Origin: Thysanoteuthis rhombus
Taxonomy: Eukaryota > Mollusca > Cephalopoda > Oegopsida > Thysanoteuthidae
Assembly: GCA_963457665.1 (NCBI GenBank)
Contig: OY735224.1
Span: 49,110,311-49,174,310 of the forward strand
Length of the DNA: 64,000 nucleotides
Reading direction: 5' to 3'
The notes beneath the pieces were generated by a model. That model was given only the letters and a program-made list of their open reading frames with translations. It had not been told where the DNA came from and ran no database searches. A program made the translations under genes and the position numbers. This document shows, in pieces, positions 1-51,476 of the stretch (positions are counted from its first letter, which is position 1; each line of letters begins with the position of its first letter).

Positions 1-101
1 GCCCATCATAGAGAAGTGTGGCAAATCCTGGGGAAGGTCTATGTCAAACGACTGATGCTAAAAGACTGATGATAATGATGATGATGATCATCATCATGAC
101 A

Positions 102-380
102 TAGCTATGAAATTTAATCAACGAAAACGTTTCCAAACATGATCAAGCTTATTTCCTTATGATCGGTAAACGTTCTCACCATGACAACTTAACGTCATCT
201 TAATGTTCTGCCGTATCGGAAGAAAACTAGGCAAAATTCTTGTTTTATCGACAATATCATAAAGATTGCTTTCATTTACTATTAAAATTGAATCGATCCC
301 AGTTTTTCTCCTCTCAAAAACAATTCAATAGCTTAACAAAAATTAATCGTATATATCATATCAAGAAAAAACGGTCCAAC
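102..380 (+). other. Leader of the array unit (copy 1), representative of all units
   Basis: The leader begins at tagctatgaaat, just after the GAT/ATC microsatellite, and runs to the gene ATG. The single minus-strand copy near 51.2 kb is homologous up to the same point (about 51476) and then diverges, so this marks the left edge of the repeated element. The last 40 bases contain TATATAT about 25 bp before the ATG, which is too close for a conventional TATA box. They also hold a pyrimidine-rich stretch ending in AG (around 300-333) that could act as a splice acceptor. Neither role is shown by the sequence. Confidence 0.6.
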
Positions 381-911
381 ATGAGCAACAAAAGAAGCCA
401 GCCAACCGAACCATCCGCAGCATCAGAGACAATCGAAGTGGCCATTACCCCCTTCATCATAGAGGTGGGTGAGGACCCACCCTTCGCTATGAGTCCTCCA
501 ATGTGCACGCTGGATATTGAGAGACCGTTGCCAGGCATAGAGGGAGCCTCAACATCCGTTGGTACTGTTCTACCGATGGTAGAGGCTCTTACTTACCGGG
601 TGAACTTCGGTCAACTATCACCTAGGATTGAGGAAGTTTCAACGCTTACCATAGCAACAGCTAATCGGGTTCATCTTCCTCGACCAATATTGCCTAGCAA
701 TACTTCTGCAGTGAACCAGAGGATGAAGCTAAAGCATCGCCTTCTACTTATTGCCTTGGCATTTTTGATTGTCATTACATTGACATTAGGTATAGTTTTG
801 GCCATTGCAGCTACTATATATGTCGTGATTTCTGAAATTATATGTATGCTGGCTATGTATTCTATATTGGTTTATCTTTGCCACCAAGATTTGAACATTG
901 AGAAGCTCTGA
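381..911 (+). CDS. Array copy 1: 176-aa putative membrane protein, intact
   Basis: I do not recognise this family. Residues 1-110 are rich in Pro, Ser, Thr and acidic residues (MSNKRSQPTEPSAA at the start) with no Cys pairs or repeats. Residues 115-120 (MKLKHR) are basic. Residues 121-150 are strongly hydrophobic, and a second hydrophobic segment covers about 154-167. By the positive-inside rule the N-terminal part would be cytosolic, with one or two membrane spans at the C-terminus. There is no N-terminal signal peptide. An NTS sequon lies at 107-109. The ATG has A at -3 and is the conserved start. The frame is open upstream to 240, but no earlier ATG is used in the family. C-terminal type A (LTLGIVLAIAATIYVV). 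Private changes include F35, L70, V86, L89 and K175. Expression is unknown. Confidence 0.7.
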   Translation: MSNKRSQPTEPSAASETIEVAITPFIIEVGEDPPFAMSPPMCTLDIERPLPGIEGASTSVGTVLPMVEALTYRVNFGQLSPRIEEVSTLTIATANRVHLPRPILPSNTSAVNQRMKLKHRLLLIALAFLIVITLTLGIVLAIAATIYVVISEIICMLAMYSILVYLCHQDLNIEKL

Positions 912-1305
912 ATATTTTCTCAAAAGTGGCCATTACCCCCTTCATCATAGACGTGGGAACCATGCAACGTGCACATGAAAGAATAATGCTGGGTCTCACA
1001 TGGGGAGACCACAAAACAACACAGTACATCCGGGAAAGGACAAGACTTAGAGACATCATAGAATCTATGAAAAATCTCAAATGGTGGTGGGCTGGCCATC
1101 TTACAACAATGTCAGACAATCGATGGACATCACGACTCACAACATGGACCTCCCAAGACCACATATGAAACTGAGACCGGCAAAATGTTAGATGGAAAAA
1201 CGCGCTAGACAAGTTCAGGAACTACTGGCTCTGTGACGCCCATCTTAGAGAAGTGTGGCAAATCCTGGGGAAGGTCTATGTCAAACGACTGATGCTAAAA
1301 GACTG
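912..1305 (+). mobile_element. LINE reverse-transcriptase C-terminal tail remnant, unit 1
   Basis: After the gene stop come about 18 nt, then a second copy of gene codons 20-30 (VAITPFIIDVG), then LINE sequence from 958. The reading frame gives ERIMLGLTWGDHKTTQYI, then IIESMKNLKWWWAGHL, then a region around DNRWTSRLTTW. This is the pattern of the extreme C-terminus of APE-type LINE reverse transcriptases (a MLGxxxRDxxxxxxIRxxT block followed by LKWxWAGHxxRM and RW). The frame closes at 1168 through a TGA in the variant shared with units 4, 7, 9 and 11. No catalytic RT motif is present, so this is a scrap and not an active element. Confidence 0.8.
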
Positions 1306-1616
1306 ATGATAATGATGATGATCATCATCATCATGACATCGCTATGAAATTTAATCAATGAAAACGTTTCCAAATATGGTCAAGCTTATTTCCATACGAT
1401 CAGTAAACGTTCTAGCCATGACAACTTAACGTCATCTTAATGTTTTGCCGTATCAGAAAAAAACTGTGCAAAATTCTTGTTTTATCGACAATAGTAGAAA
1501 GATTGCTTTCATTTACTATTAAAATTGCATCGATCCCAGTTTTTCTCCGCTCAAAAACAATTCAATAGCATAACAAAAATTAATTGTACATATCATATCA
1601 AGAAAAACAGTCCAAC

Positions 1617-2147
1617 ATGAGCAACAAAAGAAGCCAGCCAACCGAACCATCCGCAGCATCAGAGACAATCGAAGTGGCCATTACCCCCTTCAGCATAGAG
1701 ATGGGTGAGGACCCACCCTTCGCTATGAGTCCTCCAATGTGCACGCTGGATATTGAGAGACCGTTGCTAGGCATAGAGGGAGCCTCAACATCCGTTGGTA
1801 CTGTTCTTCCGATGGTAGAGGCTCATACTTACCGGGTGAACTTGGATCAACTATCACTTAGGATTGAGGAAGCTTCAACGCCCACCATAGCAACAGCTAA
1901 TTGGGTTCATCTCCATCGACCAATATTGCCTAGCAATACTTCTGCAGTGAATCAGAGGATGAAGCTAAAGCATCGCCTTCTACTTATTGCCTTGGCATTT
2001 TTGATTGTCATGGCATTGATATTAAGTATAGTTTTGACCATTGCAGCTAATATAAATGTCGTGATTTCAGAGATTATATGTATGCTGGCTGTGAATAGTA
2101 TCTTGGTTTATCTTTGCCACCAAGATTTGAACATTGAGAGGCTTTGA
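1617..2147 (+). CDS. Array copy 2: 176-aa putative membrane protein, intact
   Basis: Same architecture as copy 1 but with C-terminal type B: the hydrophobic block reads IVMALILSIVLTIAANINVV and the second segment ends MLAVNSILVYL. Private substitutions include L51, H70, L76, D77, L81 and W96. The type B block differs from type A at many positions within about 90 bp, so the two types are distinct subfamilies and not random scatter. The LINE tail that follows stays open from the base overlapping the stop (2144) to 2443. Confidence 0.68.
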   Translation: MSNKRSQPTEPSAASETIEVAITPFSIEMGEDPPFAMSPPMCTLDIERPLLGIEGASTSVGTVLPMVEAHTYRVNLDQLSLRIEEASTPTIATANWVHLHRPILPSNTSAVNQRMKLKHRLLLIALAFLIVMALILSIVLTIAANINVVISEIICMLAVNSILVYLCHQDLNIERL

Positions 2148-2850
2148 ATATTTTCTCAAAAGTGGCCATTACCCACTTCATCATAGACGTGGGAACCATG
2201 CCACGTGCACATGAAAGAATAATGCTGGGTCTCACATGGAGGGACCACAAAACAACACAGTACATCGGGGAAAAGACAAGACTTAGAGACATCATAGAAT
2301 CTATGAAAAATCTCAAATGGCGGTGGGCTGGCCATCTTGCAACAATGGAGACAATCGACGGAGATCAAGACTCACAACATGGATCCCCCGACACCACATG
2401 TGCAACCGAGGCCGGAAAAATGTTCGATGGAAAGACGCGCTAGACAAGTTCAGGAACTACTGGCTCCGTGACGCCCATCAGAGAGAGGTGTGGCAAATCC
2501 TGGGGAGGTCTATGTCAAACAACTGATGCTAAAAGACTGATGATAATGATGATGATCATCATCATCATGACATAGCTATGAAATTTAATCAATGAAAACG
2601 TTTCCAAATATGGTCAAGCTTATTTCCTTGTGATCGGTAAACGTTTTCACCATGACAACTTAATGTCATCTTAATGTTTTGCCGTATCAGAAAAAAACTG
2701 TGCAAAATTCTTGTTTTATCGACAATAGTAGAAAGATTGCTTTCATTTACTGTTAAAATTGCATCGATCCCAGTTTTTCTCCTCTCAAAAACAATTCAAT
2801 AGCTTAACAAAAATTAATCGTATATATCATATCAAGAAAAACAGTCCAAC

Positions 2851-3381
2851 ATGAGCAACAAAAGAAGTCAGCCAACCGAACCATCCGCAGCATCAGAGAC
2901 AATCGAAGTGGCCATTACCCCCTTCAGCATAGAGATGGGTGAGGACCCACCCATCGCTATGAGTCCTCCAATGTGCACGCTGGATATTGAAAGACCGTTG
3001 CCAGGCATAGAGGGAGCCCCAACATCCGTTGGTACTGTTCTACCGATGGTAGAGGCTCTTACTTACCAGGTGAACTTCGGTCAACTATAACCTAGGATTG
3101 AGGAAGCTTCAACACCTACCATAGCAACAGCTAATCGGGTTCATCTTCCTCGACCAATAATCCCTAGCAATACTTTTGCAGTTAACCAGAGGATGAAGCT
3201 AAAGCATCGCCTTCTACTTATTGCCTTGGCATTTTTGATTGTCATTACATTGACATTAGGTATAGTTTTGGCCATTGCAGCTACTATATATGTCGTGATT
3301 TCTGGAATTATATGTATGCTGGCTATGTATTCTATATTGGTTTATCTTTGCCACCAAGATTTGAACATTGAAAGGCTTTGA
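2851..3381 (+). pseudogene. Array copy 3: membrane-protein gene with stop at codon 80
   Basis: The ATG is present and the frame is otherwise continuous for 531 bp. Ser80 (TCA) has become TAA at 3088-3090. Translation would give a 79-residue product without the hydrophobic C-terminus. The rest of the frame (type A) is undamaged, so the lesion is recent or was imported whole. The same TAA occurs in copies 7, 8, 9 and 11. Confidence 0.8.
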
Positions 3382-4086
3382 ATATTTTCTGAAAAGTGGC
3401 CATTACCCCCTTCATCATAGACCTGGGAACCATGCAACGTGCACATGAAAGAATAATGCTGGGCTTCACATGAAGAGACCACAAAACAAAACAGTACATC
3501 CGGGAAAAGACAAGACTTAGAGACATCATAGAATCTATGAAGAATCTCAAATGGCGGTGGGCTGGCCATCTTGCAAGAATGGCAGAATATTGATGGAGAT
3601 CAAGACTCACAACATGGATCCCCCGACACCACATGTGCAACCGAGGCCGGAAAAATGTTCGATGGAAAGACGGGCTAGACAAGTTCAGGAACTACTGGCT
3701 CCGTGACGCCCATCATAGAGAAGTGTGGCAAATCCTGGGAGGGGTCTATGTCACACGACTGATACTAAAAGACTGATGATAATGATGATCATCATCATCA
3801 TCATGACATAGCTATGAAATTTAATCAATGAAAACGTTTCCAAATATGGTCAAGCTTATTGCCTTATGATCGGTAAACGTTCTCAGCATGACAACTTAAC
3901 GTCATCTTAATGTTCTGCCGTATCGGAAAAAAACTGTGCAAAATTCTTGTTTTATCGACAATAGTATAAAGATTGCTTTCATTTACTGTTAAAATTGCAT
4001 CGATCCCAGTTTTTCTCCTCTCAAAAACAATTCAATAGCTTAACAAAAATTCATCGTATATATCATATCAAGAAAAACAGTCCAAC

Positions 4087-4617
4087 ATGAGCAACAAAAG
4101 AAGTCAGCCAACCGAACCATCCGCAGCATCAGTGACAATCGAAAAGGCCATTACCCCTTTCATCATAGAAGTGGGTGAGGACCCACCCATCGCTATGAGT
4201 CCTCCAATGTACACGCTGGATATTGAGAGACCGTTGCCAGGCATAGAGGGAGCCTCAACATCCGTTGGTACTGTTCTACCGATGGTAGAGGCTCCTACTT
4301 ACCGGGTGAACTTCGGTCAACTATCACTTAGGATTGAGGAAGCTTCAACGCCCACCATAGCAACAGCTAATCGGGTTCATCTCCATCGACCAATATTGCC
4401 TAGCAATACTTCTGCAGTGAATCAGAGGATGAAGCTAAAGCATCGCCTTCTACTTATTGCCTTGGCATTTTCGATTGTCATTACATTGACATTAGGTATA
4501 GTTTTGGCCATTGCAGCTACTATATATGTCGTGATTTCTGAAATTATATGTATGCTGGCTATGTATTCTATATTGGTTTATCTTTGCAACCAAGATTTGA
4601 ACATTGAGAGGCTCTGA
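4087..4617 (+). CDS. Array copy 4: 176-aa putative membrane protein, intact
   Basis: Intact frame with type A C-terminus. Its N-terminal part carries a distinctive set of changes (V16, K20, Y42) shared only with copy 5. Ser129 interrupts the first hydrophobic segment and Asn168 replaces His168. The LINE tail downstream is almost the same as that of unit 1, 3,706 bp upstream. Confidence 0.68.
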   Translation: MSNKRSQPTEPSAASVTIEKAITPFIIEVGEDPPIAMSPPMYTLDIERPLPGIEGASTSVGTVLPMVEAPTYRVNFGQLSLRIEEASTPTIATANRVHLHRPILPSNTSAVNQRMKLKHRLLLIALAFSIVITLTLGIVLAIAATIYVVISEIICMLAMYSILVYLCNQDLNIERL

Positions 4618-5322
4618 ATATTTTCTCAAAAGTGGCCATTACCCCCTTCATCATAGACGTGGGAACCATGCAACGTGCACATGAAAGAATAATGCTGGGT
4701 CTCACATGGGGAGACCACAAAACAACACAGTACATCCGGGAAAGGACAAGACTTAGAGACATCATAGAATCTATGAAAAATCTCAAATGGTGGTGGGCTG
4801 GCCATCTTACAACAATGTCAGACAATCGATGGACATCACGACTCACAACATGGACCTCCCAAGACCACATATGAAACTGAGACCGGCAAAATGTTAGATG
4901 GAAAAACGCGCTAGACAAGTTCAGGAACTACTGGCTCTGTGACGCCCATCTTAGAGAAGTGTGGCAAATCCTGGGGAAGGTCTATGTCAAACGACTGATG
5001 CTAAAAGACTGATGATAATGATGATGATCATCATCATCATGACATCGCTATGAAATTTAATCAATGAAAACGTTTCCAAATATGGTCAAGCTTATTTCCT
5101 TGTGATCGGTAAACGTTTTCACCATGACAACTTAATGTCATCTTAATGTTTTGCCGTATCAGAAGAAAACTGTGCAAAATTCTTGTTTTATCGACAATAG
5201 TATAAAGATTGCTTTCATTTACTGTTAAAATTGCATCGATCCCAGTTTTTCTCCTCTCAAAAACAATTCAATAGCTTAACAAAAATTCATCGTATATATC
5301 ATATCAAGAAAAACAGTCCAAC

Positions 5323-5853
5323 ATGAGCAACAAAAGAAGTCAGCCAACCGAACCATCCGCAGCATCAGTGACAATCGAAAAGGCCATTACCCCCTTCATC
5401 ATAGAAGTGGGTGAGGACCCACCCATCGCTATGAGTCCTCCAATGTACACGCTGGATATTGAGAGACCGTTGCCAGGCATAGAGGGAGCCTCAACATCCG
5501 TTGGTACTGTTCTACCGATGGTAGAGGCTCCTACTTACCGGGTGAACTTCGGTCAACTATCACTTAGGATTGAGGAAGCTTCAACGCCCACCATAGCAAC
5601 AGCTAATCGGGTTCATCTCCATCGACCAATATTGCCTAGCAATACTTCTGCAGTGAATCAGAGGATGAAGCTAAAGCATCGCCTTCTACTTATTGCCTTG
5701 GCATTTTTGATTGTCATGGCATTGATATTAAGTATAGTTTTGACCATTGCAGCTAATATAAATGTCGTGATTTCAGAGATTATATGTATGCTGGCTGTGA
5801 ATAGTATCTTGGTTTATCTTTGCCACCAAGATTTGAACATTGATAGGCTTTGA
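5323..5853 (+). CDS. Array copy 5: 176-aa putative membrane protein, intact mosaic
   Basis: Residues 1-128 match copy 4, including V16, K20 and Y42. Residues 129-176 match the type B end of copy 2. The copy is therefore a visible recombinant of two neighbours. It ends NIDRL where copy 2 ends NIERL. The downstream LINE tail is of the unit 2 kind, so the exchange point lies inside the gene. Confidence 0.7.
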   Translation: MSNKRSQPTEPSAASVTIEKAITPFIIEVGEDPPIAMSPPMYTLDIERPLPGIEGASTSVGTVLPMVEAPTYRVNFGQLSLRIEEASTPTIATANRVHLHRPILPSNTSAVNQRMKLKHRLLLIALAFLIVMALILSIVLTIAANINVVISEIICMLAVNSILVYLCHQDLNIDRL

Positions 5854-6555
5854 ATATTTTTCAAAAGTGGCCATTACCCAATTCATCATAGATGTGGGAA
5901 CCATGTAACGTGCACATGAAAGAATAATGCTGGGTCTCACATTGGGAGACCACAAAACAACACAGTACATCGGGGAAAAGACAAGACTTAGAAACATCAT
6001 AGAATCTATGAAAAATCTCAAATGGCGGTGGGCTGGCCATCTTGCAACAATGGAGACAATCGATGGAGATCAAGACTCACAACATGGATCCCCCGACACC
6101 ACATGTGTAACCGAGGCCAGAAAAATGTTCGATGGAAAGACGCGCTAGACAAGTTCAGGAACTACTGGCTCCGTGACGCCCATCAGAGAGAAGTGTGGCA
6201 AATCCTGGGGAGGTCTATGTCACACGACTGATGCTAAAAGACTGATGATAATGATGATGATCATCATCATCATGACATAGCTATGAAATTTAATCGATGA
6301 AAACGTTTCCAAACATGATCAAGCTTATTTCCTTATGATAGGTAAACGTTCTCACCATGACAACTTAACGTCATCTTAATGTTCTGCCGTATCGGAAGAA
6401 CACTGTGCAAAATTCTTGTTTTATCGACAATATTATAAAGATTGCTTTCATTTACTGTTAAAATTGCATCGATCCCAGTTTTTCTCCTCTCAAAAACAAT
6501 TCAATAGCTTAACAAAAATTAATCGTATATATCATATCAAGAAAAACGGTCCAAC

Positions 6556-7086
6556 ATGAGCAACAAAAGAAGCCAGCCAACCGAACCATCCGCAGCATCA
6601 GAGACAATCGAAGTGGCCATTACCCACTTCATCATAGAGATAGGTGAGGACCCACCCATCGCTATGAGTCCTCCAATGTGCACGCTGGATATTGAGAGAC
6701 CGTTGCCAGGCATAGAGGGAGCCTCAACATCCGTTGGTACTGTTCTACCGATGGTAGAGGCTCCTACTTACCGGGTGAACTTCGGTCAACTATCACCTAG
6801 GATTGAGGAAGCTTCAACGCCTACCATAGCAACAGCTAATCGGGTTCATCTCCATCGACCAATATTGCCTAATAATACTTCTGCAGTGAATCAGAGGATG
6901 AAGCTAAAGCATCGCCTTGTACTTATTGCCTTGGCATTTTTGATTGTCATTGCATTGACATTACGTATAGTTTTGGCCATTACAGCTAATATAAATGTCG
7001 TGATTTCAGAGATTATATGTATGCTGGCTGTGAATAGTATCTTGGTTTATCTTTGCCACCAAGATTTAAACATTGATAGGCTTTGA
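6556..7086 (+). CDS. Array copy 6: 176-aa putative membrane protein, intact
   Basis: Intact frame, type B end. Private residues are H24, I29, N106, V122 and R137. Arg137 sits in the middle of the first hydrophobic segment, which would weaken it as a simple membrane span. Codon 24 also varies in copy 12 (Arg), so this N-terminal spot is tolerant. Confidence 0.66.
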   Translation: MSNKRSQPTEPSAASETIEVAITHFIIEIGEDPPIAMSPPMCTLDIERPLPGIEGASTSVGTVLPMVEAPTYRVNFGQLSPRIEEASTPTIATANRVHLHRPILPNNTSAVNQRMKLKHRLVLIALAFLIVIALTLRIVLAITANINVVISEIICMLAVNSILVYLCHQDLNIDRL

Positions 7087-7466
7087 ATATTTTCTCAAAA
7101 GTAGCCATTACCCACTTCATCATAGACGTGGGAACCATGCAACGTGCACATGAAAGAATAATGCTGGGCCTCACATTGGGAGACCACAAAACAACACAGT
7201 ACATCCGGGAAAAGACAAGACTTAGAGACATCATAGAATCTATGAAAAATCTCAAATGGCGGTGGGCTGGCCATTTTGCAAGAATGGCAGACAATCGATG
7301 GAGATCAAGACTCACAACATGGATCCCACAAGACCACATGTGCAACCGAGGCCAGAAAAATGTTCGATGGAAAGACGCGCTTGACAAGTTCAGGATCTAC
7401 TGGCTCCGTGACGCCCATCAGAGAGAAGTGTGGCAAATCCTGGGGAGGTCTATGTCAAACGACTGA
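7083..7466 (+). mobile_element. Best-preserved LINE reverse-transcriptase tail, unit 6, fully open
   Basis: This is the only unit in which the LINE tail stays open from the gene stop to its natural end, 127 codons including the linker. The first ATG is at 7137, giving about 109 residues. Blocks in order are RIMLGLTLGDHKTTQYIREK, MKNLKWRWAGHFARMADNRW, CNRGQKNVRWKDALDKF and YWLRDAHQREVWQILGRS. They match the layout of the LINE RT C-terminal tail, which ends with a W-x6-R-x3-W block. The frame is -1 relative to the upstream gene and overlaps its stop codon. Nothing shows that it is translated. Confidence 0.75.
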
Positions 7467-7790
7467 TGCTAAAAGACTGATGATAATGATGATGATCATC
7501 ATCATCATGACATAGCTATGAAATTTAATCAACGAAAACGTTTCCAAACATGATCAAGCTTATTTCCTTATGATCGGTAAACGTTCTCACCATGACAACA
7601 TAACGTCATCTTAATGTTCTGCCGTATTGGAATAACACTGTGCAAAATTCTTGTTTTATCGACAATAGCATAAAGATTGCTTTCATTTACTGTTAAAATT
7701 GCATCGATCCCAGTTTTCCTCCTCTCAAGAACAATTCAATAGCTTAACAAAAATTAATCGTATATATCATATCAAGAAAAACAGTCCAAC

Positions 7791-8321
7791 ATGAGCAACA
7801 AAAGAAGCCAGCCAACCGAACCATCCGCAGCATCAGAGACAATCGAAGTGGCCATTACCCCCTTCATCATAGAAGTGGGTGAGGACCCACCCATCGCTAT
7901 GAGTACTCCAATGTGCACGCTGGATATTGAGAGACCGTAGCCAGGCATAGAGGGAGCCTCAACATCCGTTGGTTCTGCTCTGCCGATGGTAGAGGTTCCT
8001 ACATACCGGGTGAACTTCGGTCAACTATAACCTAGGATTGAGGAAGCTTCAACACCTACCATAGCAACAGCTAATCGGGTTGATCTTCCTCGACCAATAT
8101 TGCCTAGCAATACTTCTGCAGTGAACCAGAGGATGAAGCTAAAGCATTGCCTTCTACTTATTGCCTTGGCATATTTGATTGTCATTACATTGACATTAGG
8201 TATAGTTTTGGCCATTGCAGCTACTATATATGTCGTGATTTCTGAAATTATATGTATGCTGGCTATGTATTCTATATTGGTTTATCTTTGCAACCAAGAT
8301 TTGAACATTGAGAGGCTTTGA
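7791..8321 (+). pseudogene. Array copy 7: membrane-protein gene with stops at codons 50 and 80
   Basis: ATG present. Leu50 (TTG) is TAG at 7938-7940 and Ser80 is TAA at 8028-8030. No frameshift. Type A end, with Asn168. The two stops occur together again in copies 9 and 11. Confidence 0.85.
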
Positions 8322-9026
8322 ATATTTTCTCAAAAGTGGCCATTACCCTCTTCATCATAGACCTGGGAACCATGCAACGTGCACATGAAAGAATAATGCT
8401 GGGCTTCACGTGGAGAGACCACAAAACAACACAGTACATCCGGGAAAAGACAAGACTTAGAGACATCATAGAATCTATGAAAAATCTCAAATGGCGGTGG
8501 GCTGGCCATCTTACAACAATGTCAGACAATCGATGGACATCACGACTCACAACATGGACCTCCCAAGACCACATATGAAACTGAGACCGGCAAAATGTTA
8601 GATGGAAAAACGCGCTAGACAAGTTCAGGAACTACTGGCTCTGTGACGCCCATCATAGAGAAGTGTGACAAATCCTGGGGAAGGCCTATTTCAAACGACT
8701 GATACTAAAAGACTGATGATAATGATGATGATCATCATCATCATGACATAGCTATGAAATTTAATCGATGAAAACGTTTCCAAATATGGTCAAGCTTATT
8801 TCCTCATGATCGGTAAACGTTCTCACCATGACAACTTGACGTCATCTTAATGTTCTGCCGTATTGGAATAACAATGTGCAAAATTCTTGTTTTATCGACA
8901 ATAGCATAAAGATTGCTTTCATTTACTGTTAAAATTGCATCGATCCCAGTTTTTCTCCTCTCAAAAACAATTCAATAGCTTAACAAAAATTAATTGTATA
9001 TATCATATCAGGAAAAACAGTCCAAC

Positions 9027-9557
9027 ACGAGCAACAAAAAAAGCCAGCCAACCGAACCATCTGCAGCATCAGAGACAATCGAAGTGGCCATTACCCCCGT
9101 CATCATAGAAGTGGGTGAGGACCCACCCATCGCTATGAGTCCTCCAATGCGCACGCTGGATATTGAGAGACCGTTGACAGGCATAAAGGGAGCCTTAACA
9201 TCCGTTGGTACTGCTCTACCGATGGTAGAGGATCCTACTTACCGGGTGATCATCGGTCAACTATAACCTAGGATTGAGGAAGCTTGAACACCTACCATAG
9301 CAACAGCTCATCGGGTTCATCTTCCTCGACCAATATTGCCAAGCAATACTTCTGCACTGAACCAGAGGATGAAGCTAAAGCATCGCCTTTTACTTATTGC
9401 CCTGGCATTTTTGATTGTCATTACATTGACATTAGGTATAGTTTTGGCCATTGCTGCTACTATATATGTCGTGATTTCTGAAATTATATGTATGCTGGCT
9501 ATGTATTCTATATTGGTTTATCTTTGCCACCAAGATTTGAACATTGAGAGGCTTTGA
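9027..9557 (+). pseudogene. Array copy 8: no ATG, stops at codons 80 and 87
   Basis: The start codon is ACG. Ser80 is TAA at 9264-9266 and Ser87 is TGA at 9285-9287. Many private changes (K6, V25, R42 and others) make this one of the more decayed array copies. Type A end. Confidence 0.85.
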
Positions 9558-10262
9558 ATATTTTCTCAAAAGTGGCCATTACCCCCTTCATCATAGACGT
9601 GGGAACCATGCAACGTGCACATGAAAGAATAATGCTGGGCCTCACATGGAGAGACCACAGAACAACACAGTACATCCGGGAAAAGACAAGACTTAGAGAC
9701 ATCATAGAATCTATGAAAAATATCAAATGGCGGTGGGCTGGCCATCTTGCAAGAATGGCAGACGATTGATGGAGATCAAGACTCACAACATGGATCCCAC
9801 AAGACCACATGTGCAACCGAGGCCGGAAAAATGATCGATGGAAAGACGCGCTGGACAAGTTCAGGAACTACTGGCTCCGTGACGCCCATCATAGAGAAGT
9901 GTGGCAAATCCTGGGGAAGGTCTATGTCAAAGGACTGATACTAAAAGACTGATAATAATGATGATGATCATCATCATCATGACATAGCTATGAAATTTAA
10001 TGAATGAAAACGTTTCCAAATATGGTCAAGCTTATTTCCTTATGATCGGTAAACGTTCTCACCATGACAACTTAACGTCATCTTAATGTTCTGCCATATC
10101 GGAAGAACACTGTGCAAAATTCTTGTTTTATCGACAATAGCATAAAGATTGCTTTCATTTACTGTTAAAATTGCATTGATCCCAGTTTTTCTCCTCTCAA
10201 AAACAATTCAATAGCTTAACAAAAATTAATCGTATATATCATATCAAGAAAAACAGTCCAAC

Positions 10263-10793
10263 ACGAGCAACAAAAGAAGTCAGCCAACCGAACCATCCGC
10301 AGCATCAGAGACAATCGAAGTGGCCATTACCCCCTTCATCATAGAAGTGGGTGAGGACCCACCCATCGCTATGAGTCCTCCAATGTGCACGCTGGATATT
10401 GAGAGACCGTAGCCAGGCATAGAGGGAGCCTCAACATCCGTTGGTACTGCTCTACCGATGGTAGAGGCTCCTACTTACCGGGTGAATTTCGGTCAACTAT
10501 AACCTAGGATTGAGGAAGCTTCAACACCTACCATAGCAACAGCTAATCGGGTTCATCTTCCTCGACCAATATTGCCTAGCAATACTTCTATAGTGAATCA
10601 GAGGATGAAGCTAAAGCATCGCCTTGTACTTATTGCCTTGGCATTTTTGATTGTCATTACATTGACATTAGGTATAGTTTTGGCCATTGCAGCTACTATA
10701 TATGTCGTGATTTCTGAAATTATATGTATGCTGGCTATGTATTCTATATTGGTTTATCTTTGCCACCAAGATTTGAACATTGAGACGCTTTGA
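10263..10793 (+). pseudogene. Array copy 9: no ATG, stops at codons 50 and 80
   Basis: ACG replaces ATG. TAG lies at 10410-10412 and TAA at 10500-10502. Type A end finishing NIETL, also seen in copy 11, two units downstream. Confidence 0.85.
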
Positions 10794-11499
10794 ATATTTT
10801 CTCAAAAGTGGCCATTACCCCCTTCATCATAGACGTGGGAACCATGCAACGTGCACATGAAAGAATAATGCTAAGTCTCACTTGGGGAGACCACAAAACA
10901 ACACAGTACATCGGGGAAAAGACAAGACTTAGAGACATCATAGAATCTATGAAAAATCTCAAATGGTGGTGGGCTGGCCATCTTGCAACAATGGCAGACA
11001 ATCGATGGACATCACGACTCACAACATGGACCTCCCAAGACCACATATGAAACCTGAGACCGGCAAAATGTTAGATGGAAAGACGTTCTAGACAAGTTCA
11101 GGAACTTCTGGCTCCGTGACGCCCATCAGAGAGAAGTGTGGCAAATCCTGGGGAAGGTCGATGTCAAACGAAGGATGCTAAAAGACTGAATATAATGATG
11201 ATGATCATCATCATCATGACATAGCTATGAAATTTAATCAATGAAAACGTTTCCAAATATGGTCAAGCTCATTTCCTTGTGATCGGTAAACGTTCTCACC
11301 ATGACAACTTAATGTCATCTTAATGTTTTGCCGTATCAGGAGAACACTGTGCAAAATTCTTGTTTTATCAACAATATTATAAAGATTGCTTTCATTTACT
11401 GTTAAAATTGCATCAATCCCAGTTTTTCTCCTCTCAAAAACAATTCAATAGCTTAACAAAAATTAATCGTATATATCATATCAAGAAAAACAGTCCAAC

Positions 11500-12030
11500 A
11501 CGAGCAACAAAAGAAGTCAGCCAACCGAACCATCCGCAGCATCAGAGACAATCGAAGTTGCCATTACCTCCTTCATCAGAGAGGTGGGTGAGGACCCACC
11601 CATCGCTATGAGTCCTCCAATGTGCACGCTGGATATTGAGAGACCGTTGCCAGGCATAGAGGGAGCCTCAACATCCGTTGGTACTGTTCTACCGATGGTA
11701 GAGGCTCTTTCTTATCGGGTGAACTTCGGTCAACTATCACCTAGGATTGAGGAAGCTTCAACGCCTACCATAGCAACAGCTAATCGGGTTCATCTCCATC
11801 GACCAATATTGCCTAGCAATACTTCTGCAGTGAACCAGAGGATGAAGCTAAAGCATCGCCTTCTACTTATTGCCTTGGCATTTTTGATTGTCATTGCATT
11901 GACATTAAGTATAGTTTTGGCCATTGCAGCTAATATAAATGTCGTGATTTCAGAGATTATATGTATGCTGGCTGTGAAAAGTATCTTGGTTTATCTTTGC
12001 AACCAAGATTTGAACATTGATATGCTTTGA
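11500..12030 (+). pseudogene. Array copy 10: open frame but ACG in place of the ATG
   Basis: The 176-codon frame has no internal stop, and only the initiator is lost (ACG). Use of an in-frame internal ATG, for example Met37, would remove the conserved N-terminus. Type B end with K160 and finish NIDML, identical to copy 13. A near-cognate ACG start is possible in eukaryotes but is not shown here, so I call it a probable pseudogene. Confidence 0.55.
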
Positions 12031-12735
12031 ATATTTTCTCAAAAGTAGCCATTACCCACTTCATCATAGACGTGGGAACCATGCAACGTGCACATGAAAA
12101 AATAATGCTGGGTCTCACATTGGGAGACCACAAAACAACACAGTACATCCGGGAAAAGACAAGACTTAGAGACATCATAGAATCTATGAAAAATCTCAAA
12201 TGGCGGTGGGCTGGCCATTTTGCAAGAATGGCAGACAATCGATGGAGATCAAGACTCACAACATGGATCCCCCGACACCACATGTGCAACCGAGGCCAGA
12301 AAAAAGTTTGATCGAAAGACGCGCTAGACAAGTTCAGGATCTACTGGCTCCGTGACGCCCATCAGAGAGAAGTGTGGCAAATCCTGGGGAAGGTCGATGT
12401 CAAACGAAGGATGCTAAAAGACTGAATATAATGATGATGATCATCATCATCATGACATAGCTATGAAATTTAATCAATGAAAACGTTTCCAAATATGGTC
12501 AAGCTTATTTCCTTGTGATCGGTAAACGCTCTCACCATGACAACTTAATGTCATCTTAATGTTTTGCCGTATCAGGAGAACACTATGCAAAATTCTTGTT
12601 TTATCAACAATAGCATAAAGATTGCTTTCATTTACTGTTAAAATTGCATCGATCCCAGTTTTTCTCCTCTCAAAAACAATTCAATAGCTTAACAAAAATT
12701 AATCGTATATATCATATCAAGAAAAACAGTCCAAC

Positions 12736-13266
12736 ACGAGCAACAAAAGAAGTCAGCCAACCGAACCATCCGCAGCATCAGAGACAATCGAAGTTGCCAT
12801 TACCCCCTTCATCATAGAGATTGGTGAGGACCCACCCATCGCTATGAGTCCTCCAATGTGCACGCTGGATATTGAGAGACCGTAGCCAGGCATAGAGGGA
12901 GCCTCAACATCCGTTGGTACTGCTCTACCGATGGTAGAGGCTCCTACTTACCGGGTGAATTTCGGTCAACTATAACCTAGGATTGAGGAAGCTACAACAT
13001 CTACCATAGCAACAGCTAATCGGGTTCATCTTCCTCGACCAATATTGCCTAGCAATACTTCTGCAGTGAATCAGAGGATGAAGCTAAAGCATTGCCTTCT
13101 ACTTATTGCCTTGGCATTTTTCATTGTCATTACATTGACATTAGGTATAGTTTTGGCCATTGCAGCTACTATATATGTCGTGATTTCTGAAATTATATTC
13201 ATGCTGGCTATGTATTCTATATTGGTTTATCTTTGCAACCAAGATTTGAACATTGAGACGCTTTGA
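12736..13266 (+). pseudogene. Array copy 11: no ATG, stops at codons 50 and 80
   Basis: ACG start, TAG at 12883-12885 and TAA at 12973-12975, the same three lesions as copy 9. Type A end with Phe in the IIFML stretch and a NIETL finish. The shared lesions imply duplication or conversion after the damage. Confidence 0.85.
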
Positions 13267-13970
13267 ATATTTTCTCAAAAGTGGCCATTACCCCCTTCAT
13301 CATAGACGTGGGAACCATGCAACGTGCACATGAAAGAATAATGCTAGGTCTCACATGGGGAGACCACAAAACAACACAGTACATCGGGGAAAAGACAAGA
13401 CTTAGAGACATCATAGAATCTATGAAAAATCTCAAATGGTGGTGGGCTGGCCATCTTGCAACAATGGCAGACAATCGATGGACATCACGACTCACAACAT
13501 GGACCTCCCAAGACCACATATGAAACTGAGACCGGCTAAATGTTAGATGGAAAGACGTTCTAGACAAGTTCAGGAACTTCTGGCTCCGTGACGCCCATCA
13601 GAGAAAAGTGTGGCAAATCCTGGGGAGGTCTATGTCAAACGACTGATGCTAAAAGACTGATGATAATGATGATCATCATCATCATCATGACATAGCTATG
13701 AAATTTAATCAATGAAAACGTTTCCAAATATGGTCAAGCTTATTTCCTTGTGATCGGTAAACGTTTTCACCATGACAACTTAATGTCATCTTAATGTTTT
13801 GCCGTATCAGAAGAACACTGTGCAAAATTCTTGTTTTATCAACAATATTATAAAGATTGCTTTCATTTACTGTTAAAATTGCATCGATCCCAGTTTTTCT
13901 CCTCTCAAAAACAATTCAATAGCTTAACAAAAATTAATCGTATATATCATATCAAGAAAAACAGTCCAAC

Positions 13971-14501
13971 ATGAGCAACAAAAGAAGCCAGCCAACCGAA
14001 CCATCCGCAGCATCAGAGACAATCGAAGTGGCCATTACCCGCTTCAGCATAGAGATTGGTGAGGACCCACCCATCGCTATGAGTCCTCCAATGTGCACGC
14101 TGGATATTGAGAGACCGTTGCCAGGCATAGAGGGAGCCTCAACATCCGTTGGTACTGTTCTATCGATGGTAGAGGCTCCTACTTACCGGGTGAACTTCGG
14201 TCTACTATCACCTAGGATTGAGGAAGCTTCAACGCCTACCATAGCAACAGCTAATCGGGTTCATCTCCATCGACCAATATTGCCTAGCAATACTTCTGCA
14301 GTGAACCAGAGGATGAAGCTAAAGCATCGCCTTCTACTTATTGCCTTGGCATATTTGATTGTCATTACATTGACATTAGGTATAGTTTTGGCCATTGCAG
14401 CTACTATATATGTCGTGATTTCTGAAATTATATGTATGCTGGCTATGTATTCTAAATTGGTTTATCTTTGCAACCAAGATTTGAACATTGATAGGCTTTG
14501 A
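13971..14501 (+). CDS. Array copy 12: 176-aa putative membrane protein, intact
   Basis: Intact, type A end. Private residues are R24, S26, I29, S65, L78 and K162. Lys162 sits in the second hydrophobic segment and could stop it from spanning a membrane. The LINE tail behind it carries a small deletion in an A-run near 14628 that breaks its frame, so gene and LINE tail decay independently. Confidence 0.64.
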   Translation: MSNKRSQPTEPSAASETIEVAITRFSIEIGEDPPIAMSPPMCTLDIERPLPGIEGASTSVGTVLSMVEAPTYRVNFGLLSPRIEEASTPTIATANRVHLHRPILPSNTSAVNQRMKLKHRLLLIALAYLIVITLTLGIVLAIAATIYVVISEIICMLAMYSKLVYLCNQDLNIDRL

Positions 14502-15204
14502 ATATTTTCTCAAAAGTGGCCATTACCCTCTTCATCATAGACGTGGGAACCATGCAACGTGCACATGAAAGAATAATGCTGGGCCTCACGTGGAGAGACC
14601 ACAAAACAACACAGCACATCCGGGAAAAAAAAGACTTAGAGACATCATAGGATCTATAAAAAATCTCAAATGGTGGTGAGCTGGCCATCTTGCAAGAATG
14701 GCAGACAATCGATGAAGATCAAGACTCACAACATGGATCCCCCGACACCACATGTGCAACCGAGGCCAGAAAAATGTTCGATCGAAAGACGCGCTAGACA
14801 AGTTCAGGATCTACTGGCTCCGTGACGCCCATCAGAGAGAAGTGTGGCAAATCCTGGGGAGGTCTATGTCAAACGACTGATGCTAAAAGACTGATGATAA
14901 TGATGATGATCATCATCGTCATGACATAGCTATGAAATTTAATCAACGAAAACGTTTCCAAACATGATCAAGCTTATTTCCTTATGATCGGTAAACGTTC
15001 TCACCATGACAACTTAACGTCATCTTAATGTTCTGCCGTATCGGAAGAACACTGTGCAAAATTCTTGTTTTATCGACAATATTATAAAGATTGCTTTCAT
15101 TTACTGTTTAAATTGCATCGATCCCAGTTTTTCTCCTCTCAAAAACAATTCGATAGCTTAACAAAAATTAATCGTATATATCATATCAAGAAAAACAGTC
15201 CAAC

Positions 15205-15735
15205 ATGAGCAACTAAAGAAGCCAGCCAACCGAACCATCCGCAGCATCAGAGAAAATCGAAGTGGCCATTACCCCCTTCAGCATAGAGATTGGTGAGGAC
15301 CCACCCATCGCTATGAGTCCTCCAATGTGCACGCTGGATATTGAGAGACCGTAGCCAGGCATAGAGGGAGCCTCAACATCCGTTGGTACTGTTCTACCGA
15401 TGGTAGAGGCTCCTACTTACCGGGTGAACTTCGGTCAACTATCACCTAGGATTGAAGAAGCTTCAACGCCTACCATAGCAACAGCTAATCGGGTTGATCT
15501 TCCTCGACCAATATTGCCTAGCAATACTTCTGCACTGAACCAGAGGATGAAGCTAAAGTATCGCCTTCTACTTATTGCCTTGGCATTTTTGATTGTCATT
15601 GCATTGACATTAAGTATAGTTTTGGCCATTGCAGCTAATATAAATGTCGTGATTTCAGAGATTATATGTATGCTGGCTGTGAAAAGTATCTTGGTTTATC
15701 TTTGCAACCAAGATTTGAACATTGATATGCTTTGA
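15205..15735 (+). pseudogene. Array copy 13: stops at codons 4 and 50
   Basis: ATG present, but codon 4 is TAA (15214-15216) and codon 50 is TAG (15352-15354). Codon 80 is normal. Type B end identical to copy 10, 3,705 bp upstream, and the LINE tails of the two units are also the same. The N-terminal part therefore has a different history from the C-terminal part. Confidence 0.85.
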
Positions 15736-16439
15736 ATATTTTCTCAAAAGTAGCCATTACCCACTTCATCATAGACGTGGGAACCATGCAACGTGCACAT
15801 GAAAAAATAATGCTGGGTCTCACATTGGGAGACCACAAAACAACACAGTACATCCGGGAAAAGACAAGACTTAGAGACATCATAGAATCTATGAAAAATC
15901 TCAAATGGCGGTGGGCTGGCCATTTTGCAAGAATGGCAGACAATCGATGGAGATCAAGACTCACAACATGGATCCCCCGACACCACATGTGCAACCGAGG
16001 CCAGAAAAAAGTTTGATCGAAAGACGCGCTAGACAAGTTCAGGATCTACTGGCTCCGTGACGCCCATCAGAGAAAAGTGTGGCAAATCCTGGGGAGGTCT
16101 ATGTCAAACGACTGATGCTAAAAGACTGATGATAATGATGATGATCATCATCGTCATGACATAGCTATGAAATTTAATCAACGAAAACGTTTCCAAACAT
16201 GATCAAGCTTATTTCCTTATGATCGGTAAACGTTCTCACCATGACAACTTAACGTCATCTTAATGTTCTGCCGTATTGGAATAACACTGTGCAAAATTCT
16301 TGTTTTTTCGACAATAGCATAAAGATTGCTCTCATTTACTGTTAAAATTGCATCGATCTCAGTTTTTCTCCTCTCAAAAACAATTCAATAGCTTAACAAA
16401 AATTAATCGTATATATCATATCAAGAAAAACAGTCCAAC

Positions 16440-16697
16440 ATGAGCAACAAAAGAAGCCAGCCAACCGAACCATCCGCAGCATCAGAGACAATCGAAGTGG
16501 CCATTACCCCCTTCATCATAGAGATGGGTGAGGACCCACCCATCGCTATGAGTCCTCCAATGTGCACGCTGGATATTGAGAGACCGTTGCCAGGCATAGA
16601 GGGAGCCTCAACATCCGTTGGTACTGTTCTACCGATGGTAGAGGTTCCATCTCACCGGTGCAACCGAGGCCGGCAAAATGTTAGATGGAAAGACTAG
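16440..16697 (+). pseudogene. Array copy 14: truncated gene fused to the distal LINE tail
   Basis: Codons 1-68 are normal, then VPSHR follows and the frame runs straight into CNRGRQNVRWKD of the LINE tail before a stop. About 600 bp, including the whole hydrophobic segment, are deleted. The join at about 16660 sits where both partners contain CCGG or CCG, so a microhomology-mediated deletion is likely. The following sequence goes directly from gcccat into an expanded (GAT)n tract. Confidence 0.8.
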
Positions 16698-17053
16698 GTA
16701 GACAAGTTCAGGAACTACTGGCTCCGTGACGCCCATGATGATGATGATGATGATGATTATGATGATGATGACATAGCTATGAAATATAATCCATGAAAAC
16801 GTTTCCAAATATGGTCAAGCTTATTTCTATATTATCAGTAAACGTTCTCACCATGACAACTTGACGTCATATTAATGTTCTGCCGTATCCGAAGAAAACT
16901 GTGCAAAATTCTTGTTTTATCAACAATAGTAGAAAGATTGCTTTCATTTACTGTTAAAATTGCATTGAAGCCAGTTTTTGTCTTTTCAAAACAAATTCAA
17001 TAGCAGTTAACAAAAATCAATTAAACATATCATATTAAGAAAAACGGTCCAAC

Positions 17054-17395
17054 ATGGGCAACAGAACAAGCCAGCCAACCGAACCATCTTCAGCATCAGA
17101 AACTGTCGGAGTGGCCATTACATCCTTCATCATAGACGTGGGAACCATGCTACGTGCCAATGAAAAAATAATGCTGGGCCTCACATGGAGAGACCATAAA
17201 ACAGTACAGTACATCCGGGAAAAGACAAGAGTTAGAGACATCATAGAATCCATTAAAAATCTCAAATGGCGGTTGGCTTGCCATTTTGCAAGAATGGCAG
17301 ACAATTGATGGACATCACGAATCACAACATGGATTCCCCGAGACCACAAGTGCAACCGAGGCCGGCAAAATGTTAGATGGAAAGACGACAAATTC
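17054..17395 (+). pseudogene. In-frame fusion of the gene N-terminus with the LINE RT tail
   Basis: The frame starts MGNRTSQPTEPSSAS, continues through VAITSFIIDVGT (gene codons 20-31), and then passes without a break into the LINE block (EKIMLGLTWRDHKTVQYI, IKNLKWRLACHFARMADN). It stops at 17306-17308, where the CGA of the array consensus is TGA, and is open again to about 17395. At about 17388 the LINE sequence is cut and joined to the leader of the next gene copy. The MGNRTS start fits the N-myristoylation pattern G-x3-S/T, unlike the MSNKRS of the array. This copy looks like the parent of the gene-LINE junction found in every array unit. Confidence 0.75.
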
Positions 17396-17450
17396 AATAG
17401 CAGTTAACAAAAACCAATTGAATATATCATATCAAGAAAAACAGTCTTAC

Positions 17451-18005
17451 ACGAGCAACAAAACAAGCCAGCTCACTGAACCATATGCAGCATCAGAAAC
17501 ATTCAAAGTCGCCATTACCCCCTTCATCCTAGAGGTAGGTGAGGACCCACAGATCGCTATGAGTCCTCCAACGTGTACAGTGGATATTGAGAGACCGTTG
17601 CCAGGCGTAGAGGGAGCCTCAACATCACTTGGTACTGTCCTACCGATGATAGAGGCTCCTTCTCCCTGGGTGAACTTCGGTCAACTATCACCCAGGATTG
17701 AGGAAGCTTCAACACCTACCATAGCGGCAGCTAATCAGGTTCATCTTCTTGGACCAAGATTGCCTGGCAATGCTTCTGCAGTGAACAAGAGGATGAAGCT
17801 AAAGATGCGTCTTTTTCTTATTCTCTAGACATTGTTGGTTGCCATTACATTGACATTAACAATATATTTGGCCATTGTAGCTACTCCATATGCCCTGATT
17901 TTTGATATTATAAGTATGATGGCATTGTATGGTGTATTTGCATTTTACACCAATATTGAACCATGGGCGTGCTTGAGTTTTTTTCCTGAAAATTGTGAAT
18001 CTTGA
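17451..18005 (+). pseudogene. Divergent dispersed copy of the membrane-protein gene
   Basis: Starts with ACG at 17451, followed by SNKTSQLTEPYAAS. The match runs to the basic block MKLKMR, then a TAG at 17826-17828 interrupts the hydrophobic segment. The frame then continues through a membrane-like stretch to a stop at 18003-18005. Its C-terminus resembles the 56.8-kb copy and not the array copies. Its 3' flank continues past 17970 without a LINE tail, so it keeps the original gene-3'UTR arrangement, and it leads into satellite A. Confidence 0.75.
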
Positions 18006-18049
18006 CTTGGAAATACGTTTTCGAGTAGCCTGCTGTATTGAGCCTGGCA

Positions 18050-50400: not shown

Positions 50401-50498
50401 TGAAAATAGTCCATGAGACTTTTTTTTGTTTCCAGGAATCCTTTAAGAATGATATTCACATTAGTCCGGGAGGATACCAGTGGAATTGAACCTGAAAT
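35425..50498 (+). repeat. Satellite A array 2 (114-bp unit, ~130 copies)
   Basis: Both flanks (35.4-37.1 and 46.2-50.5 kb) are diverged and resemble array 1 (ggaagccagtgaaattg, aagactgatattcac). The core (about 37.2-46.2 kb) is highly homogeneous with its own diagnostic bases (ggaggaaaacagtgaaattg, gactttatttagtt, attgtcctttagggactc). A block is repeated at exactly 2,284 bp: ttcacg 38211/40495, a tagagg variant 38360/40644, ctggggg 38587/40871, atcct 38951/41235. This is the pattern of a satellite with a recently amplified centre and older edges. Confidence 0.95.
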
Positions 50499-51196: not shown

Positions 51197-51476
51197 TTTG
51201 GGCCGTTTTTCTTGTTATGAAATATGCAATCAATTTATGTCAAGCTATTTGATTGTTTTTAAGTGAGAAAAACTAGGATCAATGAAATTTTAACAGTAAA
51301 TTAAAGAAATGTTTGTAGTTTTGTTCATAAAACAAGACTTGCGTATAGTTTTCTTCCGATATGGCAGAATATTAAGATGGCGTTCGGTTGTCATGGTGAT
51401 AACGTTCACTGATCGTATGGAAATAAGCTTGACCATATTTGGAAACGTTTTCATGGATTATATTTCATAGCTACGT
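51197..51476 (-). other. Leader of the 50.7-kb gene copy
   Basis: Read on the minus strand this matches array leaders (ttcataaaacaaga region, atatggcagaatatta, ggaaacgttttcatgg). Homology ends at tagctatgaaat, the same boundary as in the array. Shared transcription signals could lie here, but none was recognised. Confidence 0.6.

Follow-up and report, generated by a model that had tools for sequence, protein, structure and literature searches.

The stretch of DNA analysed here (the window, 64,000 nucleotides, C29:49110311-49174310, within a 2.73-Gb genome that 52 matches to molluscan haemocyanin mark as that of a mollusc) opens with a 176-codon reading frame that is repeated in tandem and recurs further on in dispersed copies. 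The question raised by this locus is whether the frame is a gene kept by selection or a repeat that happens to carry an open frame.

The composite array and the 114-bp satellite

According to the original prediction, 13 full-length copies of the frame lie head to tail about 1,235 bp apart, six of them intact, and both the coordinates and the frames bear this out. Successive starts are 1233-1237 bp apart, and the seven copies that are not intact have lost the start codon, gained in-frame stops, or both. On its left side the array reaches the edge of the window, beyond which further copies lie, for example at C29:49108220 and C29:49109458. Its features, all on the + strand, are as follows.

1..17390, +: head-to-tail array of composite units of ~1,235 bp, with rearranged units at the right end
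381..911, +: array ORF, intact
1617..2147, +: array ORF, intact
2851..3381, +: array ORF, one in-frame stop
4087..4617, +: array ORF, intact
5323..5853, +: array ORF, intact
6556..7086, +: array ORF, intact
7791..8321, +: array ORF, two in-frame stops
9027..9557, +: array ORF, start lost and two stops
10263..10793, +: array ORF, start lost and two stops
11500..12030, +: array ORF, start lost, rest of the frame open
12736..13266, +: array ORF, start lost and two stops
13971..14501, +: array ORF, intact
15205..15735, +: array ORF, two in-frame stops
924..957 (unit 1; ends approximate), +: 34-bp repeat of ORF nt ~56-89, 3' of the stop codon, present in every unit
958..1336 (unit 1), +: 3' part of an ORF resembling that of non-LTR retrotransposons (peptide NLKWRWAGHFARMADNRW...), bearing a tail rich in GAT
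1337..1616 (first full unit), +: 280-bp 5' region, common to the D50 copy
16440..16658, +: 14th ORF copy, truncated at ~nt 219, with the LINE-like tail attached
17054..17142, +: ORF nt 1-89 joined to a LINE-like segment, with the 5' region in front

Each unit thus consists of the 280-bp 5' region, the ORF, the 34-bp repeat of the ORF and a tail which, from the peptide motif, we take to be derived from a LINE. The junction at 17054..17142 is of the same kind as the one found in each array unit. As these junctions suggest, illegitimate recombination may have attached to a gene copy both the LINE-like tail and another piece of ORF sequence, and unequal crossing-over may then have multiplied the composite as a satellite, whose ORFs would now be decaying. 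A query with the LINE-like segment gave 49 scored matches, all on C29; the evidence for its dispersal consists of 8,491 first-look candidates, almost all of which are unscored.

The array was considered as a set of functional genes, and this was ruled out by its neutral substitution pattern: 79 nonsynonymous, 31 synonymous and 5 stop changes among the copies against a neutral expectation of 81, 31 and 3. Variants private to the array (21 rows, 18 distinct) comprise 63 nonsynonymous, 14 synonymous and 6 stop changes, with 22.6 synonymous ones expected. What is found is a homogenised head-to-tail array devoid of coding constraint, as in a satellite. With copies that drift neutrally, the array does not represent the selected part of the family; judged by its sequence, it is a decaying by-product and not the gene that matters.

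A second, shorter repeat, with a 114-bp unit, occupies three places in the window.

18120..20650, +: 114-bp satellite behind D17, on the same strand as D17
35433..50460, +: 114-bp satellite, 15-kb array
55956..56602, -: 114-bp satellite behind D57, on the same strand as D57

Those of its 176 matches that were listed (39 of 413 candidates scored) all fall in the C29 region. A protein-coding reading of this satellite was rejected; its periodic open frames, of up to 226 aa from a start codon, presumably arise because the unit length is a multiple of three.

Substitution patterns in the dispersed copies

Two dispersed copies on the minus strand had been described as open, and they are. D17 is a third dispersed copy in the window, additional to these two.

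50666..51196, -: D50, gene of 176 codons, intact; the region yielded 45 such near-identical copies, all intact
51197..51476, -: D50 5' region
56776..57300, -: D57, representing a second subtype, open over 174 codons, with a neutral substitution pattern
17391..18017, +: D17, related to the E subtype but decayed (ACG start, TAG in frame), with the 114-bp satellite behind it

The 45 D50 copies found in the region (25 on the + and 20 on the - strand) encode proteins with 97-100% identity to the query. Every one of them has its ATG and is free of stops and frameshifts, one carrying an in-frame 9-nt deletion; near-identical copies with a preserved ORF, as expected of an ampliconic family, are therefore what all 45 present. 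The 5' region behaves in the same way: of its 268 candidate matches in the genome 40 were scored, and all 40 adjoin an intact D50.

Among the 45 copies we counted 34 synonymous, 31 nonsynonymous and no stop changes, against 17.8, 45.6 and 1.6 expected (one-sided binomial p = 1.8e-5 for the synonymous excess), and the changes are distributed 14/13/38 over the three codon positions. An earlier count on the 30 best-scoring copies alone (12 nonsynonymous, 22 synonymous) came from a biased sample and is superseded by that on all 45 found. When only private variants are considered, i.e. those not shared with any of 56 paralogue rows (53 of them distinct), 18 are synonymous and 22 nonsynonymous against 10.9 and 28.1, a modest excess (p = 0.012). 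Part of the full excess may have been imported from paralogues by conversion. With 22 changes at 91 fourfold sites, the signal of selection takes the form of an excess at synonymous sites. On these sequence comparisons, D50 is likely the functional product, kept by purifying selection, and the same may hold for the E-type copies.

The 17 best-scoring D57 copies, which formed the sample for this subtype, have 35 nonsynonymous, 9 synonymous and 1 stop change against 32, 11.6 and 1.4 expected. Comparison of D50 with the array gave an omega of 0.40 (p = 0.0014, uncorrected, with many pairs and sub-regions compared). Against the consensus of E, D57 and F, D50 gave omega of 0.76-1.27, not different from 1. 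For array versus D57, codons 116-159 gave an omega of 3.2 (p = 0.046, uncorrected), to which we attach no weight. The dN/dS between copies, which had been proposed as a check, is thus not close to 1 for D50 and the array, but it does not differ from 1 in the other nine subtype pairs. The N-terminal half is closer than the C-terminal half in most subtype pairs, D57-F being reversed, and one copy, L077, is chimeric, joining an N half that resembles D50 to the C half of D57, which may point to gene conversion between copies.

The view that open frames in diverged copies speak for selection holds, then, for D50, with its synonymous excess and its omega against the array, but not for the array and the 57-kb type, both of which look neutral. 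Conversely, the alternative of a repeat carrying an open frame fits the array, while D50 fits a gene.

One could extend this alternative to the entire cluster and regard it as functionless satellite-like DNA, i.e. a non-coding macro-repeat with a chance open frame, D50 being intact owing to very recent homogenisation. Such an explanation would account for the neutral array and D57 copies, for the nine of ten subtype pairs with omega not different from 1, and for the fact that change per site in the D50 ORF (65/528) equals that in its upstream flank (about 91/750). Moreover, an arbitrary non-coding piece of the macro-unit (61000-61500) is as alike as D50, the region containing 28 matches to it, 2 of them partial, at 97-100% and on both strands. 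However, a synonymous excess is not a product of recent copying, and the excess persists in the private variants; the low omega between D50 and the array and the intactness of D50 in 45 of 45 copies, versus 6 of the window's 13 array copies, also speak against a functionless cluster. We regard this explanation as unlikely.

The amplified region on C29

A region of ~3.7 Mb on C29 (47.24-50.93 Mb) contains all listed matches of the family, of the 5' region and of the satellite. Three family searches listed 42, 150 and 150 matches, and among these matches all lie on C29 at 47.24-50.90 Mb (candidates scored: 40 of 304, 150 of 882 and 150 of 407). A family motif was counted 290 times in the whole genome and its reversed-pattern control 0 times; the places listed, the first part of the 290, are exclusively on C29.

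Within the region, D50 copies are often arranged in opposite orientations. There are 11 divergent pairs of D50 neighbours less than 33 kb apart, spaced 20-32 kb, whereas shuffling gave a mean of 2.8 such pairs and reached 11 in 0 of 10,000 shuffles; palindromic amplicons show this kind of arrangement. The 3.5-kb D50 loci align from both strands. These copy strands, neighbour pairs and 3.5-kb loci, rather than full arms, are the basis on which we describe the arrangement as inverted repeats.

The explanation that we consider probable is a lineage-specific small membrane-protein gene amplified into a cluster of ~3.7 Mb, in which D50 would be the functional form and the array a by-product. The gene and its surrounding DNA would have been amplified as partly inverted macro-units on one chromosome. 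Inverted units would allow mutual conversion, by which the copies may stay alike and damage may be purged, and the copy number may provide dosage.

It is also conceivable that the ORF belongs to a transposable element or an endogenous virus which amplified itself locally, given its fusion to the LINE-like tail in the array and the transposon debris around the ORF copies, including what we presume to be a Penelope-like reverse transcriptase. Yet scatter across the genome, as typical for such elements, was not seen, the matches listed being confined to C29 47.24-50.93 Mb of a 2.73-Gb genome. In addition, the dispersed copies are devoid of the LINE-like tail and embedded in larger duplicated blocks, the array unit contains no replication gene, and phage families and viral contigs gave no significant match. 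A mobile or viral origin thus seems highly improbable.

A different possibility is that the selected target of amplification is another gene or an element of the sequence, for instance the 114-bp satellite with a role in heterochromatin or at a centromere, and that D50 is an expressed passenger. The macro-unit is large and holds long 114-bp satellite arrays whose listed matches are all in this region, and the piece outside the gene (61000-61500) is amplified equally. On the other hand, the D50 protein sequence itself carries the signal of selection. The Pfam scan covered six ORFs, four of them members of the family, and the unit may contain other genes. We hold a passenger role to be unlikely, and keep to amplification of a selected D50 gene in what follows.

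The predicted protein and comparison with known systems

The layout proposed earlier, i.e. a Pro/Ser/Thr-rich acidic N-terminal half, a basic patch and a hydrophobic C-terminus, was recovered in the D50 protein. As residues 1-112 hold 12 acidic against 7 basic residues, the N half is only mildly acidic; it is followed by QRMKQKHR and then by hydrophobic sequence at ~117-168. The AlphaFold2 model (mean pLDDT 57.3, pTM 0.26) has pLDDT below 50 for almost all of residues 1-103 and a single helix at 108-170. Because this confidence is low, matches from a fold search would mean little. For D57, a hydrophobicity simulation was not significant (P = 0.12). The product would be a small membrane protein with a disordered Pro/Ser/Thr-rich tail of ~110 residues, a basic patch and a hydrophobic helical C-terminus forming one long or two short membrane segments.

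The family had been called unrecognised, and it remains so in Pfam, NCBIfam, PHROGs and PDB, none of which gave a match at E < 0.001. The best E values were 0.19 (D50) and 0.29 (array copy) in Pfam, 0.24 (D50) in NCBIfam, 0.71 in PDB (D50 being the sole query) and 0.0081 (array copy) in PHROGs, where D50 had no match. Prokaryotic or viral relatives of D50 were sought in IMG/VR and GTDB genomes, and none of the 26 and 149 pattern matches was confirmed. No homologue outside the locus appeared among the matches listed or in the collections searched, which hold no animal genomes. IFITM proteins (dispanins) are small membrane proteins whose cytosolic tail is rich in proline, and D50 shares with them a disordered Pro-rich tail, a basic patch and a C-terminal hydrophobic part; the likeness is one of layout alone, D50 having no significant match in Pfam, NCBIfam or PDB.

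About 200 bp 5' of the D50 ATG we noted a candidate regulatory site.

51387..51400, -: ATCACCATGACAAC, matching the RFX X-box consensus in a degenerate form, shared by all 45 D50 copies

The form scanned, RYYNYY-AT-RRNRAC, matches about 1.2% of shuffled 280-bp regions, and the published RYYNYY-N1-3-RRNRAC matches 27% of them; the motif was chosen after inspection of the sequence, and the 45 copies are not mutually independent. The candidate does not fit the stricter consensus forms beginning with GYT that appear in the accessible part of PMC2375033, according to which X-box presence alone does not predict regulation. As a putative RFX-type control site it is a weak lead. Taken further, one may imagine a palindromic multi-megabase ampliconic locus around an orphan membrane-protein gene, akin to the testis-gene amplicons on mammalian sex chromosomes, with the X-box directing expression to ciliated or sperm cells and with dosage or an arms race (meiotic drive) behind the amplification; this we find quite improbable. 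Our best guess on the role is a putative dosage-amplified, lineage-specific membrane protein, one that might be required at high dose in one tissue, perhaps in ciliated or germ cells.

In a single locus, a multi-copy gene that appears to be under selection is found together with sister subtypes that look neutral and with a satellite built from that gene. The effects of selection and of homogenisation can therefore be compared naturally among neighbouring copies of a single gene. A further gain is a protein family for which the libraries searched gave no significant match, and which repeat masking could easily conceal.

Ampliconic palindromic gene families are described, in the accessible text of three papers, for primate Y and X chromosomes (PMC3723533, PMC6772104, PMC6028258). 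In the literature searched, as far as its text was available, a mollusc ampliconic cluster was not found: among the papers listed, those on ampliconic palindromes deal with the sex chromosomes of vertebrates, and the two pairing 'ampliconic' with 'mollusc' have a bird and an ascidian as their subjects, a thin basis. As portrayed in these partial sources, the primate families share with D50 many near-identical intact copies that are often inverted; the chimeric copy found here, a possible trace of gene conversion, would add to the likeness. D50 proteins are 97-100% identical to the query, while the mutual identity of human Y copies is put at > 99% (PMC6772104). The present cluster differs in belonging to a mollusc, in being built around an orphan gene, and in that its unit also contains large satellites and a composite array in decay. 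For the array itself, the closest parallel is PcH-Sat of the limpet Patella, described in the available part of its report as a satellite with a 179-bp monomer derived from Nin-SINE (PMC11121367). Both are tandem arrays in a mollusc built around an apparent piece of a mobile element; unlike PcH-Sat as described there, the array has a unit of ~1,235 bp, its listed copies are all at one locus, and each unit carries a whole copy of a protein-coding gene.

Array copies, dispersed copies and their protein

The head-to-tail array of the original prediction was borne out, with 13 full-length copies of a 531-nt ORF at a spacing of 1,233-1,237 bp; when the 13 ORFs were inspected, six were found to be intact, as had been claimed. 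The two dispersed open copies, D50 and D57, also exist, and a third, D17, is decayed. Each array unit consists, in order, of a 280-bp 5' region, the ORF, a 34-bp repeat and a LINE-like part, which comprises the 3' end of a LINE-like ORF and a GAT-rich tail. The 34-bp repeat duplicates ORF nt ~56-89 and begins ~13 nt past the stop. No LINE-like part is present in the dispersed copies. In D17 and D57 the 3' region is followed by a same-strand 114-bp satellite, and in D50 the common 3' region is followed by a mostly inverted satellite (inversion judged by eye).

Features of the window
17054-17142: junction of ORF nt 89 and LINE-like part at the right end of the array, preceded by the 5' region
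17391-18017 (+): D17
20781-21796 and 53925-55393: inverted duplicate blocks behind D17 and D57, ~93.5% identity
22.4 to 28.6 kb: diverged sequence related to the ~212-bp array
24174-25211 (-), upstream pieces to 26110: reverse transcriptase remains (RVT_1 match, E 1.4e-07)
28679-28860 and 55425-55625: diverged single LINE-like pieces (~70%)
29535-33962: second tandem array, ~212-bp unit, ~20 copies
50666-51196 (-): D50
55744-55902 (+): eukaryotic LSU rRNA fragment (Rfam RF02543, 143 bits), flanked by the satellite that follows D57 and by a LINE-like fragment
56776-57300 (-): D57

The genes D17 and D57 are only ~83% identical, compared with ~93.5% in the blocks behind them. We take the reverse transcriptase remains to be of Penelope type, with a GIY-YIG-like C-terminal end.

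The D50 protein has 176 residues, with 12 acidic and seven basic ones among residues 1-112, the stretch QRMKQKHR after residue 112, and then hydrophobic windows over ~117-168. AlphaFold2 predictions for nine window proteins gave pLDDT <50 for almost all of residues 1-103 and one helix at 108-170, mostly with pLDDT 77-95. The claim that no known family has this arrangement held in profile searches, the best E values being 0.19 (Pfam), 0.71 (PDB) and 0.24 (NCBIfam), none of them significant. A search of PHROGs with an array copy gave a best E of 0.0081, over a 53-residue, mostly hydrophobic stretch, and the same search with D50 gave no match. Relatives of D50 were not found in viral or prokaryotic contigs, the eukaryotic sequence covered being this genome alone.

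Scale of amplification on contig OY735224.1

The setting of these genes is a large ampliconic cluster, invisible from the window alone. The window, shown to be eukaryotic by its LSU rRNA fragment, occupies 49,110,311-49,174,310 of this contig (54,156,971 bp) in a 2.73-Gb genome. All matches listed in searches with the ORF DNA (42 matches; 40 of 304 candidates scored), the D50 protein (150; 150 of 882) and the D57 protein (150; 150 of 407) lie on OY735224.1 at 47.24-50.90 Mb. A 32-base family motif, with up to three mismatches, occurs 290 times in the whole genome (197 forward, 93 reverse), its reversed-pattern control not once in the genome; the places that come first in the list are all on this contig. 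For the 114-bp satellite query, 39 of 413 candidates were scored, giving 176 matches; all of these that are listed fall in the same region. An arbitrary non-coding piece, 61000-61500, has 28 matches there on both strands (97-100%), 26 nearly full length and two partial; of its 11 remaining matches, one, a weak one, is in the region and 10 short ones are on other contigs. As this non-coding piece is equally multiplied, entire macro-units, that is, the gene plus surrounding DNA, have been amplified, and not the gene alone.

PF14830, the molluscan haemocyanin domain, is matched 52 times in the genome and in 0 of 14 control genomes, which marks the genome as that of a mollusc. On another contig (C25:56607734-56625492) nine equal-scoring haemocyanin domains lie ~2.2 kb apart, which we presume to resemble the repeated units of mega-hemocyanin.

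Substitution patterns and proposed origin of the array

Changes in the array are like those of neutral DNA. Distinct changes from the 13-copy consensus were 79 nonsynonymous (N), 31 synonymous (S) and five stop (expected 80.9, 31.1 and 3.1), and variable sites at codon positions 1, 2 and 3 were 36, 37 and 32; with eight added rows, three of which repeat window copies, the counts were N 87, S 32 (expected 34) and stop 6. The 13 ORF copies have no indels, and the rest of the unit has them at five positions. For D57, the 17 best-scoring full-length copies, 16 of them intact, gave N 35, S 9 and stop 1 (expected 32.0, 11.6 and 1.4). Two stops interrupt an 18th place, and 17 further listed places are partial matches only, a one-base deletion at nt 377 being common to all four read.

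All 45 D50 copies found have the ATG and neither stop nor frameshift, one carrying an in-frame 9-nt deletion. Since all 40 scored matches to the D50 5' region (268 candidates) adjoin intact D50, no frameshifted D50 was overlooked among those 40. D50 changes were N 31, S 34 and stop 0 (expected 45.6, 17.8 and 1.6; one-sided binomial p = 1.8e-5), with 14, 13 and 38 at codon positions 1, 2 and 3. Because paralogues may donate variants, the count was repeated on those absent from paralogue rows (56 rows, 53 distinct), giving S 18 and N 22 (expected 10.9 and 28.1; p = 0.012). What carries the signal is an excess of synonymous change (22 changes at 91 fourfold sites). Counted over all its sites, the ORF has changed about as much (65/528) as the upstream flank (~91/750), which counts against strong constraint.

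The original prediction had taken open frames in diverged copies as a sign of selection. Pairwise codon models on consensus sequences bear this out for D50 against the array (omega 0.40, single-test p = 0.0014), but not for the nine remaining pairs among the array and subtypes D50, E, D57 and F (omega 0.76-1.37, not different from 1); E-D17 gave 0.90. The gene is probably real in its D50 form, and the eye-catching array is where that interpretation fails. We consider it likely that a lineage-specific membrane protein has been amplified for dosage: selection and homogenisation would keep the D50 gene in many copies, and the array would arise as a satellite by-product with decaying ORFs.

As to how the array was formed, a genome-wide search with a LINE-bearing query (window 850-1350, including 62 bp of the ORF end) gave 8,491 first-look candidates, compared with 304, 268 and 413 for the ORF, 5' region and satellite queries. 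Of the 8,491, 40 were scored, yielding 49 matches, all 49 on OY735224.1; with so many candidates, though only 40 scored, the tail fits a dispersed mobile element, which we assume from a motif to be a LINE. As the junction at 17054-17142 follows a 5' region, we infer a composite: the evidence suggests that a gene copy became fused to the LINE-like tail, after which unequal crossing-over multiplied the fusion.

The E subtype has eight listed places, all open across the matched part; three of the four read have a 170-aa frame. The fourth shares a 4-nt deletion near the end with D17, a decayed relative of E. In most subtype pairs the divergence is ~10-14% over the N half and 14-37% over the C half, the exception being D57-F (4.7% and 1.0%), and one locus, L077, is a chimera in which a D57 C half follows an N half like that of D50. 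Both observations are probably due to recombination or conversion. D57 (57300, minus) and, of the four E copies that were read, L084 and L085 start with MGNK, which presumably fits an N-myristoylation pattern; D50 and array copies start with MSNK.

An X-box lead and the layout of the copies

In all 45 D50 copies, which are not independent, ATCACCATGACAAC lies 204 bp upstream of the ATG and agrees with the degenerate X-box RYYNYY-N1-3-RRNRAC (PMC2375033). Of 14 array copies, 12 depart from the scanned form, RYYNYY-AT-RRNRAC, at the first position, and in the remaining two even the best site has at least two mismatches to it; one other exact match lies in the window (9099, minus). RFX factors drive ciliary genes, and mouse spermatids need RFX2 (PMC4498915); the X-box might point to where the D50 protein acts. 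This is a lead only: the published degenerate consensus matches 27% of shuffled 280-bp regions, which counts against it, and the Drosophila study describes the X-box by itself as not predictive (PMC2375033). A palindromic ampliconic locus around an orphan membrane-protein gene, perhaps RFX-switched in ciliated or sperm cells, seems to us an unlikely reading beside that of a dosage-amplified gene.

The 45 D50 copies lie on both strands (25 plus, 20 minus), and D57 often shares the strand of D50, ~6 kb ahead of it. Divergent D50 neighbours <33 kb apart number 11, against a shuffle mean of 2.8, and 0 of 10,000 shuffles reach 11. Known from gene positions and strands, this layout is that of palindromic amplicons.
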